Shown piece by piece: positions 27,902 to 36,389 of a stretch of 42,385 nt of DNA. The DNA lies in NCBI GenBank assembly GCA_013154375.1, contig JAADCR010000038.1:1-42385 (forward strand), in the 5' to 3' direction. Position numbers and translations under genes: made by a program. Each line of letters begins with the position of its first letter. Positions within the stretch are counted from its first letter, which is position 1. The notes below the pieces were generated by a model that saw only the letters and a program-made list of their open reading frames with translations, did no database searches and was not told the origin of the DNA. The DNA comes from Aquificota bacterium. GTDB lineage: Bacteria; Aquificota; Aquificia; Aquificales; Aquificaceae.

Positions 27902-29088
27902 TAAAGCACTTTAAAGAGAACGAAGAGTTTGCCAAGTTCTTAAAAGAGCGGATGGGCTTATACCCTAAAGAGGCCCTCCACCGCTCGGGCGAGGGCATCT
28001 TCCACTGCCTCTACCTCTCGGCCCCCCTTCCCCCCGAACCCTTTTTTTTGTCCGCGCGCCGCTACGGCCTCCACGCCTTCCACGGCGGCAACCGCTTCTT
28101 AGTCTGCGGTAGCGAGGCCCGTCTAAAGGAGTTTCTCGGCCAGCTGCACGGCCACGAGGCGTGGAGAAAGGTAGCCCGCGAGGCACTCGAGACGCTCATC
28201 CGCTACCGGCGCCGCTACTTCAAGCTCAGCTACAACCGGAAAATACTCCCGCTCGGGCTAAAGACCGCCGTCATGGGCGTTCTAAACGTCACGCCCGACA
28301 GCTTCTCCGACGGCGGGCTGTACCTGAAGCCCGAGGACGCCCTTAAACGGGCCGTACAGATGGCCGAGGAGGGTGCCGAGATTATAGACGTAGGGGCCGA
28401 GAGCACGCGCCCGGGCTCGGAGCGCGTCCCGGCCAAGGAGGAGCTTAACCGCCTCCTGCCCGCGCTGAAGCTCATAAGAAAAGAGCTCCCAGACGTCTGG
28501 CTCTCGGTAGACACGTACAAAGCCGGGGTGGCCCGCGCCGCCTTAGAAGAAGGCGCGGACATTATAAACGACGTCAGCGGCGGCACTTACGACCCCGAGA
28601 TACTAAAAGTAGTAGCGGAGTACCGCTGTCCTTACGTAATTACGCACACAAAGGGCAGGCCCGAGCGTTGGAGAGAGGAGCCGCCCTACTACGAAGACGT
28701 TATAGCCGAAGTAGTTAGCTTCTTTAAAGAGCGGATAGAGGCGTTAAAGGCGGCCGGCTACGAAGAGGAAGAGAAGCTTATTCTGGACCCGGGCATAGGC
28801 TTCGGTAAGCTGCCCGAGCACAACGTAGCCATTCTTAAGCGCTTCGACGAGCTCAGGGTTTTCGGGAAGATTCTCATGGTGGGCGTCTCGAGAAAGTCCT
28901 TTATTGGTATAATACTCGAGGGCTTTCTCGGCCGGAAGACCGAGCCGAGGGAGCGGCTTTACGGCAGCTTAGGCGCGCTCGCTCCGGCCGTTATGGGCGG
29001 GGCACACGTAGTCCGCGTCCACGACGTTAAAGAGACGAAGGAGTTTCTGGCCCTCCTCGACGCGGTAAGAACGTACGATGGCGCTTGA
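27889..29088 (+). CDS. folP: Dihydropteroate synthase with N-terminal extension
   Basis: 399 residues (GTG start, overlapping the DUF2892 gene). Residues about 125-395 are classical DHPS: MGVLNVTPDSFSDGG, EIIDVGAESTRPGSE, DIINDVSGG, LILDPGIGFGK, and VGVSRKSFIG. The first about 120 residues (FKENEEFAKFLKERMG through LIRYRRRYFKLSYNRK) are an extension found in Aquificales-like folP proteins, of unknown role. DHPS joins the HPPK product to p-aminobenzoate. The alternative start GTG six bases on cannot be excluded. Confidence 0.95.
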   Translation: MQVLIKHFKENEEFAKFLKERMGLYPKEALHRSGEGIFHCLYLSAPLPPEPFFLSARRYGLHAFHGGNRFLVCGSEARLKEFLGQLHGHEAWRKVAREALETLIRYRRRYFKLSYNRKILPLGLKTAVMGVLNVTPDSFSDGGLYLKPEDALKRAVQMAEEGAEIIDVGAESTRPGSERVPAKEELNRLLPALKLIRKELPDVWLSVDTYKAGVARAALEEGADIINDVSGGTYDPEILKVVAEYRCPYVITHTKGRPERWREEPPYYEDVIAEVVSFFKERIEALKAAGYEEEEKLILDPGIGFGKLPEHNVAILKRFDELRVFGKILMVGVSRKSFIGIILEGFLGRKTEPRERLYGSLGALAPAVMGGAHVVRVHDVKETKEFLALLDAVRTYDGA

Positions 29089-29845
29089 GCTACTTAAGGA
29101 GCTCGTAAGCTGGCGCGACCTCCTCGACGTAGTAGGTCTTACTTTACTTTTTTACGCCCTCTTTCACGTCCTCTTTTTAGCCCGCGGACAGCACGTCCTT
29201 AAGATACTGCTTCTTTTAGGCGTCTTCTGGGCGGGTGCCCAGATTTTGGGCCTCTCGGCCCTCTCGTGGCTGTTTGAGAAGCTCTGGATTCTGGCGCTTT
29301 TCTCGCTCGTGGTAGTCTTCCAGCCGGAGCTGAGGCACGCGCTCGTACGGCTCGGCCGTCGGACGGGCGTTTTTAAGGTGGCCGAGTACGAAGAGCGCTC
29401 CATAGACCGGCTGGTAAGGGCCTGCCGCTTTATGGCCGAGCGGCAGATAGGCGCACTTATAGTAATAGAGCGCGAGCAGAACATAGACGACCTTATAGAG
29501 GGCTGCGTCTACATAGACGCGTACATATCGGCCGAGCTACTTATAACCATCTTCTACCCCATGACGCCCCTCCACGACGGTGCGGTGGTGGTAAGAAACG
29601 ACCGGATAGCCTACGCCTCGTGCGTGCTGCCGCTCTCAAAGACGGCGCAGCTGCCTAAAAAGTACGGCACGCGGCACCGCGCCGCCGTCGGCATTACCGA
29701 GCTTAGCGACGCTATAGCCATCGTCGTCTCGGAGGAGACGGGCGAGATATCGATAGCCGTCGACGGCGTGCTCGAGAAGGTCTTAGACCCGGAGCTGCTT
29801 AAAGATAAACTCCTCTCCCTACTCGAGGTGGAGCATGGAGCGTAA
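29078..29845 (+). CDS. cdaA: Diadenylate cyclase CdaA
   Basis: 255 residues. Three N-terminal membrane helices (about 15-35, 42-60, 68-82) precede the DisA_N domain with the catalytic motifs DGA (167-169, PLHDGAVVV) and RHR (199-201, GTRHRAAVGITE). It makes cyclic di-AMP from two ATP, which controls potassium, osmolytes and wall turnover in other bacteria. It overlaps folP by 11 bp and the YbbR gene by 11 bp, the usual cdaA-cdaR pairing, though glmM is missing here. Confidence 0.95.
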   Translation: MALELLKELVSWRDLLDVVGLTLLFYALFHVLFLARGQHVLKILLLLGVFWAGAQILGLSALSWLFEKLWILALFSLVVVFQPELRHALVRLGRRTGVFKVAEYEERSIDRLVRACRFMAERQIGALIVIEREQNIDDLIEGCVYIDAYISAELLITIFYPMTPLHDGAVVVRNDRIAYASCVLPLSKTAQLPKKYGTRHRAAVGITELSDAIAIVVSEETGEISIAVDGVLEKVLDPELLKDKLLSLLEVEHGA

Positions 29846-30215
29846 AGAGCGGATAAAGTACCTGCTTCTTGCCTTCGCGGTTGCCCTCTCGCTCTGGGTG
29901 GCTTACAACTTCGGGAGCCGCGAACGCGTAGAGGCCGTAAGGTTCGTCGAGCTACTAAACGCCGACGAGCGTTACGCTTACGAGCTCAAGCCGCCCTTCG
30001 TCGAGATATCCCTCTTGGTGGCGCGGAAGTTCGTCCGCTCGCCCCTGCTCGAGCGCGTCCGCGCTTTCGTAAACGTAAAGGGTCTCAAAGAAGGCACTTA
30101 CCTGCTTAAAGTGGTGGTCCACTCACCTTTACCGTTCTTAATAAGCCCTACGGGCGTTAACCCCCCGCGCGTCCGCGTCGTAATTAAAAAGGCCTTACCC
30201 GAATCTCGACGGTGA
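29835..30215 (+). CDS. YbbR-domain protein, CdaR-like regulator of CdaA
   Basis: 126 residues: one membrane helix (YLLLAFAVALSLWVAYNF) then a single YbbR-type beta domain (VRFVELLNADERYAYELKPPFVEIS, VRAFVNVKGLKEGTYLLKV, then VRVVIKKA). CdaR proteins bind CdaA at the membrane and tune it. Most have three or four YbbR repeats, this has one. The 3' end overlaps the convergent GspM-like gene by 32 bp. Confidence 0.78.
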   Translation: MERKERIKYLLLAFAVALSLWVAYNFGSRERVEAVRFVELLNADERYAYELKPPFVEISLLVARKFVRSPLLERVRAFVNVKGLKEGTYLLKVVVHSPLPFLISPTGVNPPRVRVVIKKALPESRR

Positions 30216-30579
30216 AAACCCCTTTACCCGTGTTGTCCACCGCCTCGAGCTCCTCCACCTTGCCTGCCCGCTCGAGCTCGTACAGAAGCTCTACGAGCAG
30301 CACCCCGGGCACCTCGCGCGCCTTCAGCGCGTAAACCCCGTCTTTGAAACTAAGCTCGTCGAAGCTAAGCCCCAACCGCGCAGACAGCTCCCGTATAAAC
30401 CCTTCGTCAAGACGCGGCCGCTCCCGTGCGCCGCTCAGCTCCACTAAAAACTGTTTGTAGCTTAAGTACTGACCGTTAAGCAGCTTTTTGAGCTCACTTA
30501 CGGTGTTTAGAGAGTTAAACGAGTAGAGTAAGAGAAGCAGCGTCACCAGAGCGTAGACGACGCGTCTGCTCAGTATCAC
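30184..30579 (-). CDS. GspM/PilO-like inner-membrane assembly protein
   Basis: 131 residues from a GTG overlapping the stop of the GspL-like gene (GTGA). A short cytoplasmic start, one membrane helix (VVYALVTLLLLLYSF), a short coil, and a C-terminal ferredoxin-like alpha/beta part (LVELLYELERAGKVEELEAV, then FTVEIRVRPF) give the layout of GspM or a short PilO. No exact motif exists for this family, so the call rests on architecture and on the gene before it. It is the last gene of the operon. Confidence 0.6.
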   Translation of the reverse strand: MILSRRVVYALVTLLLLLYSFNSLNTVSELKKLLNGQYLSYKQFLVELSGARERPRLDEGFIRELSARLGLSFDELSFKDGVYALKAREVPGVLLVELLYELERAGKVEELEAVDNTGKGVFTVEIRVRPF

Positions 30580-31712
30580 AGCTCCACCTCGAACTCTACC
30601 GTACCGTGGGGCGTCTTCCTGACCGAGGAGGCTTTAAACCCCTCGGGCAGCTTCTCGACCTCACCCACTACTTTTAACTTGCCGTCTTTAAACGAGATGT
30701 GCAAGATGCGCGCACCCTCGGGCAGACTCTTAAGAAGCTCCGTAAGTTTTTTAACCAGCTCGCTCCGGCCCCCTTTAAGACTCTTTAGCTGCGTCTCGAC
30801 CATAACCGGGGGCCTGCCGGGAAAGCGCGCGGCAAAGAGCTCCTTTTTCCTCTCTTGGAAGGCTTTAACTATGTAACGGGCGGCCCGGTCGGCACCCCAC
30901 TCGAGCCCTAAAAAGGTTACGGTAGAGACGAGCAGCACCCCGAGCAGAGCCTTAAGCTCGGAAGGCGAGAGCTCCTCCTGACGGAACGACGGAGAGGGGT
31001 CGCGGTAGACGAACTTAAGTGCCGCGCCGAGGGCCGTAGCCTTCTCGGGCTCGGCGTAAGGGAGCTCTAAAACTTCTTTAAACAGCTCCTTAAGCCCTTT
31101 AAGCCGCGAGCCTCCGCCCGTAAGTAGAACGCGGCCCCCTTTTAGGTTAAGCTCGTCCAGCATCTGCTTTAAGGCTTCTTTTAAGTAAGGCAGCTCTAAA
31201 CCCTTCTCCCTTTTCAGCCGCTCCGCCTGCTCGAGCGGCAGGTTCTCCCGCTCGGCCACCAGACGCGTAAGGTAGTCGCCGCCTCTAAGAAGCACGCGGT
31301 AGGAGCTTAAAAGGTAGTCTTCTGTTCTGACGAGCGTGGTTTTACGGCGGCCGAGGTCGAGCACGGTAAGCTCTGGCTCTTTTAAAAGACGCGAGAGCCG
31401 GGCTAAGGAAAACAGCTCGCAGTCGAGTGCGTAGGCGTCTTCGGGCGGGTAGAACTCTTTTATAAGGACCAAGTAGTAAAACTCGCCGGCCACTGCCGCG
31501 TCCCACAGATAGTCTTGCCCCTCGAGCTCCAGCCTGAGGTAGCTTTTAAGCTCGGAGGGCTTCATCTCGAGCTTCTCGCGCTTTACGAAGCACAGGTCCG
31601 AAGGGACGGCGTAAATCTTTCTGCCCGTGCGGTCCGTAGGCTTCCAGCTACGGGTAAAGGGCGTTACGCGTACGCTGAAGGTTTTCTTACCGTCTACGCC
31701 GGTAAATATCAT
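30576..31712 (-). CDS. GspL / PilM-PilN-like platform protein (type II secretion or type IV pilus)
   Basis: 378 residues. Residues 1-235 are an actin-like fold as in GspL/PilM: LTVLDLGRRKTTLVRTED (phosphate-1), LLRGGDYLTRLVAERENLPL, GRVLLTGGGSRLKGL (adenosine motif) and EKATALGAALKFV. One membrane helix (about 250-266, ALLGVLLVSTVTFLGLEW) leads to a periplasmic ferredoxin-like domain as in GspL. The first helices also resemble PilM, and a PilM-PilN fusion would look the same. GspL links the secretion ATPase (GspE) to the inner membrane. No gspE or pilB is in the window. Coupled by ATGA to the GTPase gene upstream and by GTGA to the GspM-like gene. Confidence 0.75.
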   Translation of the reverse strand: MIFTGVDGKKTFSVRVTPFTRSWKPTDRTGRKIYAVPSDLCFVKREKLEMKPSELKSYLRLELEGQDYLWDAAVAGEFYYLVLIKEFYPPEDAYALDCELFSLARLSRLLKEPELTVLDLGRRKTTLVRTEDYLLSSYRVLLRGGDYLTRLVAERENLPLEQAERLKREKGLELPYLKEALKQMLDELNLKGGRVLLTGGGSRLKGLKELFKEVLELPYAEPEKATALGAALKFVYRDPSPSFRQEELSPSELKALLGVLLVSTVTFLGLEWGADRAARYIVKAFQERKKELFAARFPGRPPVMVETQLKSLKGGRSELVKKLTELLKSLPEGARILHISFKDGKLKVVGEVEKLPEGFKASSVRKTPHGTVEFEVEL

Positions 31713-32263
31713 CCGGTAAGCTGGGTCTTTATAAGCTCGAGAAGCAGAAGCAGCGCTTTTTTAACGTCGTCCTTGTTCTTAGCCGATATGCCGATAACGG
31801 GTATACCCTCTTCTTCGGATATGTCGAGCGCTACGGCCACGTCCTCGGGGGACCACGCGTTAGGCAGGTCCTGCTTGTTGGCGGCCACGACCAGAGGTAC
31901 CGGGTATCTGCTCTGGAAGAAGTTTATAATCCTTCTGGCCTCGTGAAAAGTTTTAGGGTCCGTGCTGTCGACGAGCACGATAACGCCCAGAGCCCCCTCG
32001 CCCAGAATCTCCCACATGAAGTTAAAACGCGACTGGCCCGGCGTGCCGAAGAGGTAAAGCTCGTGCTCGTCGTCTATCTTTATCTTCCCGAAGTCCATGG
32101 CTACGGTGGTGGAGCTTTTTTTCTCTTTCTCCTTAGGGTCGGTGATTTTCCGCTCGGTGGTGACGGGCTCTATCTCACTCACGGTGCGGATAAACTCCGT
32201 CTTGCCCGCCGCGAAGGGACCGGCTATAACGATTTTTATCTTCTTGGGCTTTTTCTCGCTCAT
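31709..32263 (-). CDS. Small Ras-like GTPase of the CvnD type
   Basis: 184 residues. P-loop GPFAAGKT (15-22), switch I TTVAMDFGKI (52-61), G3 region LFGTPGQSRFNFMWE (71-85), NKQD at 129-132 and SAK at 160-162. The TTVAMDFG and LYLFGTPGQ blocks match the GTPase of actinobacterial conservons (CvnD). As in that group, the G3 Asp of DxxG is replaced (GTPGQ). GTP hydrolysis by these proteins is controlled by Roadblock partners, and such a partner is encoded two genes upstream. The start overlaps the DUF4388 gene (ATGA, 32260-32263) and the stop overlaps the GspL-like gene. Confidence 0.9.
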   Translation of the reverse strand: MSEKKPKKIKIVIAGPFAAGKTEFIRTVSEIEPVTTERKITDPKEKEKKSSTTVAMDFGKIKIDDEHELYLFGTPGQSRFNFMWEILGEGALGVIVLVDSTDPKTFHEARRIINFFQSRYPVPLVVAANKQDLPNAWSPEDVAVALDISEEEGIPVIGISAKNKDDVKKALLLLLELIKTQLTG

Positions 32264-32952
32264 AGCTTCTTTATTTTCTCGATTAGCTTAGCCAGTAAGT
32301 CGAGCGATATGGAGGGCTTCTTAGGCGCCTTTTTACGCTTCCGCCTTATGGCGCCTATGGACAGCAGGCCGTAAAGCGTACGGTAGAGCGTAAGCTTGTC
32401 CAGCCCGCTTTTCTCGAGAATGTCCTTTACCGTGTTTTTACCGTCTATAAGGTTCAGAACCTTCTGCTCCTCGTCCGTAAGGCGGGCTTTACGGACCTTC
32501 TCCTCGTAGTCGGGCGCTTTCTCGAAAACGAGCAGCTCGTCGGAGATTTTCCGCTCGGTCTCCTCGAGCGTTAGCCTACGGGCGGACTCCATAATCAGGT
32601 ACTCCGCCGGGTAGAAGACGGGAACCGTCTCGGGGTACCTTATAAAGCCCTGCGTAAAAGAGAATATCCCTTCGCGGTTGTCGAGCCTCGAGAGAAAGAA
32701 CTTCTTTACCGTCTCGGCCAGAGAGCTCTCGCGGAGGCGGAGCTTCTCGAGGAGCTTCTCAAAGTCGCGGTCTACGTATATGCGGAAGACCTTGTCTACG
32801 GGACGGGCGAGCACGAGCTCGCCGTCTTTAATGTAGTAAGCAACGGTCATGTCCTTCCACTCGACGATGAGTACCCCGCTCTTCTTGTCGGCGTGGAGTA
32901 CCTGCAGGATGTCCGCAAAACTAAACGACTTTAGGTCTCCCGTCAGCGTCAT
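32260..32952 (-). CDS. DUF4388 (PATAN-like) protein with winged-helix C-terminus
   Basis: 230 residues. The N-terminal DUF4388/PATAN block is LTGDLKSFSFADILQVLH, KKSGVLIVEWKDMTVAYYIKDGELVLA. A winged-helix-like end follows (LTDEEQKVLNLIDGKNTVKDI, LTLYRTLYGLLSIGAI), then a basic linker KRKKAPKKPS and an amphipathic last helix. PATAN proteins in other bacteria relay signals to small GTPases or response regulators, for instance in twitching motility. It lies between the Roadblock and GTPase genes, at the place of CvnC, which also ends in a winged helix. Confidence 0.8.
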   Translation of the reverse strand: MTLTGDLKSFSFADILQVLHADKKSGVLIVEWKDMTVAYYIKDGELVLARPVDKVFRIYVDRDFEKLLEKLRLRESSLAETVKKFFLSRLDNREGIFSFTQGFIRYPETVPVFYPAEYLIMESARRLTLEETERKISDELLVFEKAPDYEEKVRKARLTDEEQKVLNLIDGKNTVKDILEKSGLDKLTLYRTLYGLLSIGAIRRKRKKAPKKPSISLDLLAKLIEKIKKL

Positions 32953-32955
32953 CGT

Positions 32956-33309
32956 TTAGATGAGCTCCTTTAACTTCTCCTGAATCTTTTTAATCTCCAT
33001 GTACACGAGCCCGAGCTTGGCGTTGGCGCCCGCGAGCGTAGTAAGCACGGCCTCTTGCCCTATGCCCGTGAGGATAATGTAGCCTTGGTCGCCCTTAATG
33101 GTTATCTGCTCGAGCGTGCCCTTTTTGAGCTCTTCCACCACCCGTTCGCCCAGAGAGAGTAAGGCGGCGCTCATGGCGGCTACCTTGTCCTCTTCCGCGT
33201 CCGGCGGTAAAACCGAGGCGATGGGTAGGCCGTCCATACTTACCAGAGAGGCCCCTTCCACCCCGCTGGCTTTCACGAGCTCCTGAAGAAGCATCTCGTA
33301 CTTGTCCAT
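32956..33309 (-). CDS. Roadblock/LC7-domain protein (MglB/CvnB-like)
   Basis: 117 residues, one Roadblock domain: EMLLQELVKASGVEGASLVSMDGLP, AAMSAALLSLGERVVEEL, QITIKGDQGYIILTGIGQEAVLTTLA and a last helix. Roadblock dimers act as GTPase-activating proteins or adaptors for Ras-like GTPases. The ATG has GGGAGG nine bases upstream. It precedes the DUF4388 gene by 3 bp. Confidence 0.92.
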   Translation of the reverse strand: MDKYEMLLQELVKASGVEGASLVSMDGLPIASVLPPDAEEDKVAAMSAALLSLGERVVEELKKGTLEQITIKGDQGYIILTGIGQEAVLTTLAGANAKLGLVYMEIKKIQEKLKELI

Positions 33310-33327
33310 AACTCTATGCCTCCCGCG

Positions 33328-34014
33328 TCATTTAAAAAACTCAAGCTCGCGCTTTAGCTCTAATATTATACTTTCGAGCTTCTTAAGCTTTTTCTTCGTC
33401 TCTTCGTCCGTCTCCAGCTCGAGCTCGCGTACCTCCCCTTCCAGCTCCGCCGACAGCTCTTTAAGCTTTTCTATCTTCTCTTTAATCTCTTCGACGCTCT
33501 CTTTGAGCGCTAACCCCAGCGCTCCCACCGGGTCGAGCCCCACGGGAATCTCGTCGAGGCTCAGATAACCGCTTTTTAGTTTCTCGACTTCCTTAATAAG
33601 CTCGCCCGACTTCTCGACCATGGGCACTATCTCGAGCTCGAGGTCCTTCACCTTACGCTCGCAGCTCTTCCTGAGCTGTACAAGCGCGTTTTCGGTGACC
33701 TTTACCACCTCCTCGAGCTCCTGCTGCAGGGTGAAAGGCACCACCACCTCCTCGGGCCTCTCCTTGTGCTCCGCCAGAACGGTAGCCAGATAGTAGAGCT
33801 TCCCCAACACCTCTTCAAACTTCAGCTTAAAGACGACCGTAACCACGGCTACGAAGATGAGCGAGAAGCCTACGCCTATAAGCGCCGAAGGAAGCAGGCC
33901 CATGTCGGTAAAGAGGTAAAGCATGGAGGTAGTTAAAAAGGCATGGAAGACGAAGAGGAAAAAGACGATTTTTAGCAGCTCCTCGGCCAGCGACGAGCGT
34001 CTGGTAACTTTCAT
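33328..34014 (-). CDS. Membrane protein with two helices, HAMP-like linker and long coiled coil (head of GTPase operon)
   Basis: 228 residues. Two membrane helices (about 13-35 and 43-63) with almost no loop between; then a charged segment FKLKFEEVLGKLYYLATVLAEH that could be a HAMP-like linker, and a coiled coil from about residue 90 to the end (ELELEIVPMVEKSGELIKEV; KEKIEKLKELSAELEGEVRE). There is no kinase or methyl-accepting domain. The place matches CvnA, the membrane sensor of conservons, but without its kinase-like domain. A GAGGG site lies 7 bases upstream of the ATG and a weak -10-like TATCAT/CATAAT region about 25 bases upstream. Confidence 0.7.
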   Translation of the reverse strand: MKVTRRSSLAEELLKIVFFLFVFHAFLTTSMLYLFTDMGLLPSALIGVGFSLIFVAVVTVVFKLKFEEVLGKLYYLATVLAEHKERPEEVVVPFTLQQELEEVVKVTENALVQLRKSCERKVKDLELEIVPMVEKSGELIKEVEKLKSGYLSLDEIPVGLDPVGALGLALKESVEEIKEKIEKLKELSAELEGEVRELELETDEETKKKLKKLESIILELKRELEFFK

Positions 34015-34045: not shown

Positions 34046-34624
34046 TCAGTCTTCGTCTTCCTTTACGCTCATCTCGCGCTTCATCGCCACCTTACCCGTA
34101 CGGGCCATCTCCTTTATCCCGAAGGGCTTAAGCAGCTCTATCATGGCGTTTAGCTTCTCCTCGTCGCCGGTTACCTCTATGGTGTAAGTGTCGGGAGAGA
34201 CATCCACCACCTTACCGCGGAAAATCTCGGTTATCCGGAGCACCTCGTCGCGGGCTCGGGGCGTGGGCGTGTAGACCTTTATAAGTGCAAGCTCGCGCTC
34301 CACGTGCGGTACGTCCGTAAGGTCGGTAACCTTAAGCGTGTCGATAAGACGCCTGAGTTGCTTCACCACCTGCTCTATAACTATGTCGTCGCCTATGACC
34401 TCTATAGTCATGCGGGAGATGCCCTTCTCGTGCGTCTCGCCTACGGACAGCCCCTCTATGTTGTAGCCCTTACCGGCAATGAGCGTAGCTATGCGGGCCA
34501 GAACGCCCATCTCGTTGCGTACCTTTACGGTGATTATGTGTTTCCTTACTTTACCTTTCCGCAGCTGGCGGAGCTTAGGAGAGCTTACCACCTGAACGTC
34601 GGCCTTTCCCACCGTGTCCGACAT
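34046..34624 (-). CDS. ilvN: Acetolactate synthase small (regulatory) subunit
   Basis: 192 residues from the ATG at 34624, chosen because GGGGTGAG lies just before it (the end of ilvB). The ACT domain reads IITVKVRNEMGVLARIATL, AGKGYNIEGLSVGETHEKGI and SRMTIEVIGDD, and the C-terminal dimer part is ELALIKVYTP to EVTGDEEKLNAMIELLKPFG. It gives valine feedback control to IlvB. The unusual basic N-terminal 30 residues precede the ACT domain. Confidence 0.94.
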   Translation of the reverse strand: MSDTVGKADVQVVSSPKLRQLRKGKVRKHIITVKVRNEMGVLARIATLIAGKGYNIEGLSVGETHEKGISRMTIEVIGDDIVIEQVVKQLRRLIDTLKVTDLTDVPHVERELALIKVYTPTPRARDEVLRITEIFRGKVVDVSPDTYTIEVTGDEEKLNAMIELLKPFGIKEMARTGKVAMKREMSVKEDED

Positions 34625-34628
34625 CTTC

Positions 34629-36389
34629 TCACCCCACGAGATACATAGTCTCGGCCTCGTGCTTGCCCTTACCGTCCTCGACAATCATGTCTTTATAAGA
34701 CTTACCCGCGGGTACCATGGGCAGCACGTTCTCCTCGCGGTCTACCCAGAAGTCTATAACCACGGGCTTGTCGTCAATCTTACGCGCCTCTTCTATAACC
34801 TCGCGGACCTCTTGGGGCTTCGTGGCACGCATGCCCACCGCGCCCATGGCCTCGGCCAGCTTAACGAAGTCGGGCTGGACCGAGAGGTCCACCTCCGAGT
34901 AGCGCTTGTCGTAGAAAAGCTCCTGCCACTGACGGACCATCCCTAAGTAAGCGTTGTTTATAATAGCCACCTTTATAGGTACCTTGTACTGGACCGCGGT
35001 TATAAGCTCCTGCATCGTCATGGTAAACGAGCCGTCCCCGTCGACGACCCAGACCTCTTTCTCGGGCCTTCCTATCTTGGCCCCTATGCCCGCCGGCAGA
35101 CCGAAGCCCATGGTTCCCAGTCCGCCCGAGTTTATAAACTGCCTCGGGAACTTGTACTTGTAAAACATGGCCGCCCACATCTGGTGCTGTCCCACGCCGG
35201 GGACTATGATGGCCTCTCCTTTCGTAGCCTCCCAGAGCTGCTCTATAACGAACTGCGGCTTTATGACTTTGTCGGAGTTTCTGTAGGTAAGCGGGTGGAG
35301 CTTCTTCCACTTCTCTATCTGCTCTATCCACTTCTTCCTCTCCTCCGGGTAGAGGAGCTTCGCCCCTCTCTTTTTAATCTCGTCTAAGAGTTTCCTAAGG
35401 ACCGTCTTAACGTCGCCCACTATGGGCACGTCGACGGTGATGTTTTTCGATATAGAGGCCGGGTCAATGTCGATGTGGATAATCTTGGCCTCGGGGGCAA
35501 ACTCGTCTATCTTTCCCGTAACGCGGTCGTCAAAGCGGGCACCTACGGCTATAAGAAGGTCCGAGTTGTAGACGGCCATGTTGGCGTAATAGGTGCCGTG
35601 CATGCCCAGCATCCTCAGAGCCAGCGGGTGCGTCTCGGGGAAGGCGCCCTTACCTTGCGTGGTGGTGGTTACGGGAATCTGGAGAAGCTCCGCCAGCTCT
35701 AAAAGCTCCTTCTGGGCTTCTGCGTTTACCGCCCCGCCGCCTACGTAAAGAACGGGCCTTTTAGCCGAGAGGATAAGCTCGGCAGCCTTCTTTATCTGCT
35801 GCGGGTTGCCCTCGGTGTGGGGTCTGTAGCCGGGGAGGGCCTGCTTTACCTCCTCGTCCGAGGGTATCTCTACCTCCGACAGCTGCTGCGTGACGTCCTT
35901 AGGCAGGTCCACGAGAACGGGGCCCGGCCGGCCCGTCCGGGCAATGTAAAAGGCTTCCCTTAAAACGAGCGGCAGCTCTTCGACGTCTTTCACCAGAAAG
36001 TTGTGCTTAGTTATGGGCCGGGTTATCCCGACGATGTCGACCTCTTGGAAGGCGTCGTTACCTATAAGGTGCGTGGGCACCTGACCGGTTATGGCCACCA
36101 GCGGGACAGAGTCCATGTAAGCGTCGGCTATGGGGGTGACGAGGTTCGTCGCCCCCGGGCCCGAAGTGACCATCACCACGCCCACCTTACCGGTGGCCTT
36201 AGCGTAGCCCTCGGCCATGTGGCCCGCGCCCTGCTCGTGACGGGCCAGAATATGCTTAATCCCGCCGAGGCGGTAAAGCGCGTCGTAGACCTCCATTATC
36301 GCCCCGCCGGGAAGACCGAAGATAACCTCTACCCCTTCTTCTTTTAAAACTTCTATAACTATGTCCGCGCCCTTCCTCGCTTTCGCCAT
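34629..36389 (-). CDS. ilvB: Acetolactate synthase large subunit
   Basis: 586 residues. The thiamine-diphosphate enzyme has the N-terminal [17 protein letters not shown] and the active-site [13 protein letters not shown] (Glu of the TPP ring), the FAD/domain part [15 protein letters not shown], and the TPP/Mg motif [19 protein letters not shown] with [13 protein letters not shown]. It starts valine, leucine and isoleucine synthesis. The ATG follows GGAGGT by ten bases in a 112-bp intergenic region shared with atpA. Confidence 0.97.

Follow-up and report, generated by a model that had tools for sequence, protein, structure and literature searches.

An MglA/MglB/PATAN gene module of Aquificota with gspL and gspM attached at its 3' end in Aquifex

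Anatomy of the six-gene run

The window, by which we mean the whole stretch of 42,385 nucleotides analysed from an Aquificota bacterium, contains a run of six minus-strand genes, all of which had been listed in an earlier sequence-only reading of this DNA and were recovered as open reading frames (Table 1). In the order of transcription they encode a membrane coiled-coil protein, a Roadblock/LC7 protein, a DUF4388 protein, a small GTPase, GspL and GspM. DUF4388 is a domain which we take to be the PATAN domain (InterPro). The last four genes were said to be coupled, and the three 4-bp overlaps are indeed seen on the sequence: ATGA between the DUF4388 and GTPase genes, ATGA between the GTPase gene and gspL, and GTGA between gspL and gspM. 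The Roadblock and DUF4388 genes are separated by 3 bp, the membrane protein and Roadblock genes by 18 bp.

Table 1. Genes of the run and its direct neighbours, with positions in the window
Feature	Position	Strand	Basis or remark
ilvN + ilvB (acetolactate synthase)	34046..36389	-	directly upstream, same strand
Membrane protein, 228 aa	33328..34014	-	two TM helices (residues 16-34, 44-62), then coiled-coil cytoplasmic part
Roadblock/LC7 (MglB-type) protein	32956..33309	-	Pfam Robl_LC7 3.4e-23
DUF4388 (PATAN) domain + C-terminal winged helix	32260..32952	-	Pfam DUF4388 1.7e-22
MglA-type small GTPase	31709..32263	-	GPFAAGKT, TTVAMDFG, GTPGQ, NKQD, SAK; Pfam Ras-like
GspL: cytoplasmic ASKHA domain, TM 252-271, periplasmic C-terminal domain	30576..31712	-	Pfam, Foldseek, orthology
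GspM: N-terminal TM + short periplasmic domain with conserved AVDNTGxG	30184..30579	-	orthology
Diadenylate-cyclase-like + CdaR-like genes	29078..30215	+	convergent; overlap gspM 3' end by 32 bp

The acetolactate synthase genes, which the earlier reading had left out, lie 31 bp upstream of the membrane protein gene. Since they are on the same strand and no promoter is recognisable in the 31-bp gap, the transcription unit may comprise eight genes. Its 3' end is marked by the diadenylate-cyclase-like and CdaR-like pair. The same convergent neighbours are found at loci L006-L010, and smaller overlaps with gspM are kept in other Aquifex genomes.

A Pfam search of the 228-aa membrane protein returned no kinase domain, in agreement with the earlier description of a membrane head that lacks one. 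Homologues occur only in Aquifex, in genus g5 and, beyond these, in a small number of Aquificaceae. In Aquificaceae that lack this gene, its place just upstream of the Roadblock gene is occupied by a conserved gene of about 280 codons for a permease-like protein (L144, L023, L028). Hydrogenothermaceae show a different conserved run (L145:3416-6337, L147, L183, L185), which reads ndk, membrane protein, two-TM HAMP protein, a protein of approximately 310 aa, Roadblock, PATAN and GTPase; the HAMP protein (HAMP 2e-11) is thus encoded two genes before the Roadblock gene, and the protein of approximately 310 aa gave no family match.

Class of the GTPase and its partners

The TTVAMDFG, GTPGQ and NKQD motifs of the GTPase are invariant in 14 homologues. 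The first two had been read as blocks of CvnD, the GTPase of actinobacterial conservons; both are present, but they are not specific to CvnD as they also occur in Chloroflexi homologues. In the published classification of MglA proteins, GTPGQ is common to Groups 2-5, and the G4 motif deviates in conservon-type Group 2 as well as in proteobacterial Group 3 (PMC4316618). The GTPase of the window combines GTPGQ in G3 and a threonine that replaces the G2 arginine finger with a canonical G4 motif ([NT]KxD, here NKQD) and a coupled Roadblock (MglB) gene, and judged by these motifs and this partner gene it fits Group 5. Groups 1 and 5 were found in Aquificae, sometimes beside PATAN genes, in the survey of 2014 (PMC4316618). 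The neighbourhood of MglA/MglB and PATAN genes has thus been published (Makarova 2006; Wuichet & Sogaard-Andersen 2014, PMC4316618), and the statement that no system of this composition had been described holds for the attachment of gspL and gspM but not for the genes that precede them. We found no experimental study of a Group 5 MglA module.

In our tree the Aquificota GTPases group with those of Chloroflexi (86/76) and are set apart from proteobacterial Group 3, while all eight plasmid CvnD sequences (8/8) form a separate, starred clade that contains no Aquificota GTPase. The protein encoded upstream of the proteobacterial Group 3 GTPase was considered as a possible PATAN protein and rejected, since it gave no significant profile match. 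A second MglA-like GTPase (L133:5629-6192), with GIPGQ rather than GTPGQ and a Roadblock gene beside it, is encoded on contig 28 of the same genome.

The sequence-only reading was right that the order membrane protein, Roadblock, HTH protein, GTPase is conservon-like, as it matches that of a conservon locus (L140). A CvnD-type GTPase is nevertheless contradicted by motifs and tree: we rejected membership of the core in the conservons because the GTPase falls outside the CvnD clade and has a canonical NKQD as well as SAK. Nor did the core proteins yield a CvnA histidine-kinase-like domain or a Pfam DUF742 domain. GTPase motifs, tree position and parallels in Thermus and Deinococcus together indicate that the core belongs to an already known kind of MglA/MglB/PATAN module and is not a conservon, despite its conservon-like order.

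The C terminus of the DUF4388 protein matches the winged helix of TrmB (Pfam, 1e-4). Its AF2 model (mean pLDDT 87) shows winged-helix helices and strands at residues 160-204, and a Foldseek search of this model against the PDB gave nothing with an E-value below 0.18. A relation to DUF742 was tried and rejected. Pfam gave no DUF742 match in this protein; the hhalign score against DUF742 (29.5) exceeds that of column shuffles but is lower than that against an ordinary DeoR winged helix (36.6), and the HTH similarity is generic.

These comparisons bear on the possibility that the core regulates transcription in the manner of an actinobacterial conservon, with the PATAN-winged-helix protein binding DNA. 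The shared A-B-C-D order would agree with it, as would a winged helix in both third proteins, given that DUF742 has been placed in the HTH superfamily (PMC8510531), and the HAMP protein of the Hydrogenothermaceae run. It is opposed by the position of the GTPase outside the CvnD clade with differing G4 and G5 motifs, by the absent histidine kinase, by a DUF742 similarity that does not rise above that of DeoR, and by the membrane protein itself, whose interpretation as a HAMP sensor we tested and discarded as Pfam gave no match and the score was no better than that of a reversed-sequence control. We consider such conservon-like regulation unlikely.

GspL, GspM and the position of their genes among relatives

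The identification of the last two proteins as GspL and GspM was settled by orthology with type II secretion system (T2SS) operons of sister genera, in which the gspL orthologue lies beside gspE, often together with gspM, gspK, gspD, gspN and gspC. The N-terminal part of GspL matches FtsA (6e-10) and PilM_2 (9e-5) in Pfam and is thus an ASKHA domain of FtsA/PilM type; the best Foldseek matches of its AF2 model, which is of low confidence (mean pLDDT 59), are PilM structures (4e-10). This domain is followed by one TM helix and a periplasmic domain, the layout of GspL, and the periplasmic GspL_C model was weakly matched by one orthologue (L131, 9e-5). Searched with a profile built from the GspL-like proteins of Aquifex, 48 of 61 relatives gave matches, some of them weak. 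The GspM-like protein on its own matched no Pfam family, GspM included. It has the layout of GspM, an N-terminal TM helix and a periplasmic domain, encoded by a gene that adjoins gspL, and its AVDNTG motif recurs in Aquifex GspM homologues and in the orthologues read, with gspL as common neighbour; its identity follows from these orthologues beside gspL in T2SS operons.

The gspL and gspM genes of the run are the only copies in the genome, where gspD-gspN-gspK-gspF are found on contig 72 (L132) and gspC-gspE on contig 21 (L002). The search for gspE or pilB elsewhere in the genome, as the sequence-only reading had proposed, thus gave gspE on contig 21 and type IV pilus ATPases at other loci. 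The T2SS genes of Aquifex, a heat-loving bacterium, are scattered over the genome.

The core is conserved in three families, among them Aquificaceae and Hydrogenothermaceae. By profile search 54 of 61 relatives have the GTPase, and the PATAN gene is present in 94 of 136 Aquificota genomes; the two genes are adjacent wherever loci were read. The order of the complete run is not kept in this way, an outcome that the sequence-only reading had itself named as counting against its proposal. Only in genus Aquifex (g1) does gspL adjoin the GTPase gene (7/7 genomes), whereas outside Aquifex unrelated genes follow the GTPase gene and gspL is located elsewhere; in other Aquificaceae the neighbour is an MFS transporter gene or argC on the opposite strand. 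The GTPase-linked GspLs form one clade (100/99), which also includes the long-branched row L127, so that most simply a single relocation would have brought gspL into the GTPase operon. In the sister genera g5 and g8 gspL and gspM are already a detached pair. Genus g5 also joins ilvBN to the module (L012, L016, L146), and synteny within Aquifex also extends, for the most part, to the genes that flank the run on either side. Because ilvBN are linked in two genera and the flanks are syntenic, linkage is here weak evidence of joint function; mixed operons are normal in this family.

All seven Aquifex genomes have preserved the ATGA overlap between the GTPase gene and gspL, even though GspL identity drops to approximately 48%. 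They include the complete genome G001, in which gspM lies 252 kb from gspL, at 1,043,752, behind a pseudouridine-synthase-like gene. The detached gspM (L179:5717-6145) is still convergent with CdaR/CdaA-like genes, so that the run was broken between gspL and gspM in this rearrangement. The gspL of G001 (L118:8449-8616, minus strand) is broken by a -1 shift exactly at A_AAA_AAG, a classic -1 slippery heptamer, and conserved GspL sequence is restored on reading on in the -1 frame; an error of sequencing, a true mutation and programmed frameshifting could each account for it.

Coupling to a constitutive operon might simply keep GspL and GspM equimolar, with the signalling module irrelevant to secretion. 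The detached pair of g5 and g8 and the mixed operons with ilvBN are consistent with such a dosage effect, but the split pair of G001 implies that equimolar coupling is not essential. We regard dosage alone as somewhat unlikely, although it overlaps with the explanation that we prefer, an ordinary switch with appended gspL and gspM, and is hard to tell apart from it by sequence.

Function and comparison with known systems

Co-occurrence was determined in 53 genomes that are about 90% complete or better. The core is accompanied by GspK in 36 of these, 12 have the core without GspK and five have GspK without the core; no co-occurrence of core and T2SS was shown in this sample (Fisher p = 0.58). 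Ten of the 12 near-complete core genomes without GspK also lack GspL, and five of these ten (G007, G016, G023, G048, G056) are single-contig assemblies. Several ATPases of PilB/PilT/GspE type are present in each of the 61 genomes, core-less ones included, so that a pilus target gains no discriminating support from co-occurrence. In G012 (L182:4819-9060) pilB precedes the PATAN-GTPase pair on the same strand, with a HIT protein gene and gmk in between.

The explanation that we hold to be probable is that of an ordinary Aquificota MglA/MglB/PATAN switch, with pili or gene expression as output, to which gspL and gspM were appended in Aquifex. The GTPase would alternate between its GTP- and GDP-bound forms. 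The Roadblock protein would serve as GAP or co-regulator of the GTPase, the PATAN-winged-helix protein as adaptor or effector, and the complex would be anchored at the inner membrane by the coiled-coil protein with its two TM helices. On this view the module is older than the T2SS and independent of it. Purely by analogy, it would most likely act on the motor of type IV pili or on gene expression. Synechocystis PATAN regulators bind PilB1, and PixG binds PilC too (PMC12288463, PMC10519157), which together with the PilB/PilT-type ATPases of every relative makes the pilus motor a plausible target; transcription via the winged helix would be the alternative. In Aquifex gspL and gspM would have relocated together and now close the operon at its 3' side; they presumably share a transcript with the GTPase gene and are coupled to it in translation, and their dose may follow expression of the module. 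The overlap kept between the GTPase gene and gspL supports translational coupling, perhaps dosage control. That it was kept despite the divergence of GspL would be explained by selection for coupling, which counts against this preferred explanation.

The sequence-only reading had proposed that the GTPase places or switches the GspL/GspM platform, for which the comparative evidence offers no support. In this proposal GspL is the point at which the GTPase acts directly on the inner-membrane platform of the T2SS, in the way that MglA acts on the pili of Myxococcus. It would be in line with an operon that has three 4-bp overlaps, with linkage and GTPase/GspL overlap in all seven Aquifex genomes, and with GspL as a PilM-type ASKHA protein, considering that PATAN proteins can bind PilB-type motors. 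But this linkage is confined to one genus and one event, core and T2SS do not co-occur, gspM is detached in G001, the flanks are largely syntenic as well, and ilvBN are equally tied to the run. We therefore judge direct control to be distinctly unlikely, and as the switch without T2SS and the reverse are both found among relatives, shared transcription is better supported. A rewired Group 5 switch of Aquifex, in which the GTPase or the PATAN adaptor would bind to the cytoplasmic domain of GspL, or to GspE, and set the place or time of secretion, seems to us quite improbable. No link of a GTPase/Roadblock pair to the T2SS was found in the open-access literature, and if the rewired switch were real it would be a GTPase-controlled secretion platform of a kind not described before.

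Modules with a Group 5 MglA occur widely among deep-branching bacteria. The Aquificota core is compact and conserved with three genes, and its proteins should be stable to heat and amenable to structural study. As the T2SS is naturally present or absent around this near-invariant core, the target of the GTPase is a testable question. The acetolactate synthase genes in the same run also make it a case in which operon linkage alone is misleading.

Among known systems, the core is most readily compared with Group 5 MglA, MglB and their PATAN neighbours, known in Aquificae, with which it shares the GTPGQ and TT motifs, canonical NKxD, coupled Roadblock gene and PATAN gene. It differs in that the Aquificota order is fixed and PATAN is fused to a winged helix; Aquificaceae add a membrane coiled-coil gene, and in Aquifex the run ends with gspLM. 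The same kind of genes stand in one run on plasmids of Thermus and Deinococcus (L138, L139), with DUF4388 annotated in Thermus and the first gene of the Deinococcus run annotated just as hypothetical; their GTPases are 44-48% identical, but the order is PATAN, GTPase, Roadblock and there are no membrane protein or secretion genes. The actinobacterial conservons CvnA-B-C-D (L140, L151-L156) have the order membrane protein, Roadblock, HTH protein, GTPase in common with the core. They differ in the histidine-kinase-like domain of CvnA, in a CvnC that is a DUF742 protein with no PATAN domain, and in a CvnD that is without the G4 lysine and falls in a clade of its own. The MglA/MglB control of pilus polarity in Myxococcus likewise pairs an MglA-type GTPase with a Roadblock partner, whereas the Group 1 arginine finger and TVPGQ are absent from the Aquifex GTPase. 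GspL and GspM resemble those of other T2SSs in domain layout, TM position and the gspE, gspK and gspD neighbours of relatives; unlike in the usual T2SS, gspLM of Aquifex are detached from all other gsp genes and joined to the GTPase operon. The new part is this attachment, which is lineage-specific to Aquifex, while the core is of a kind already known.
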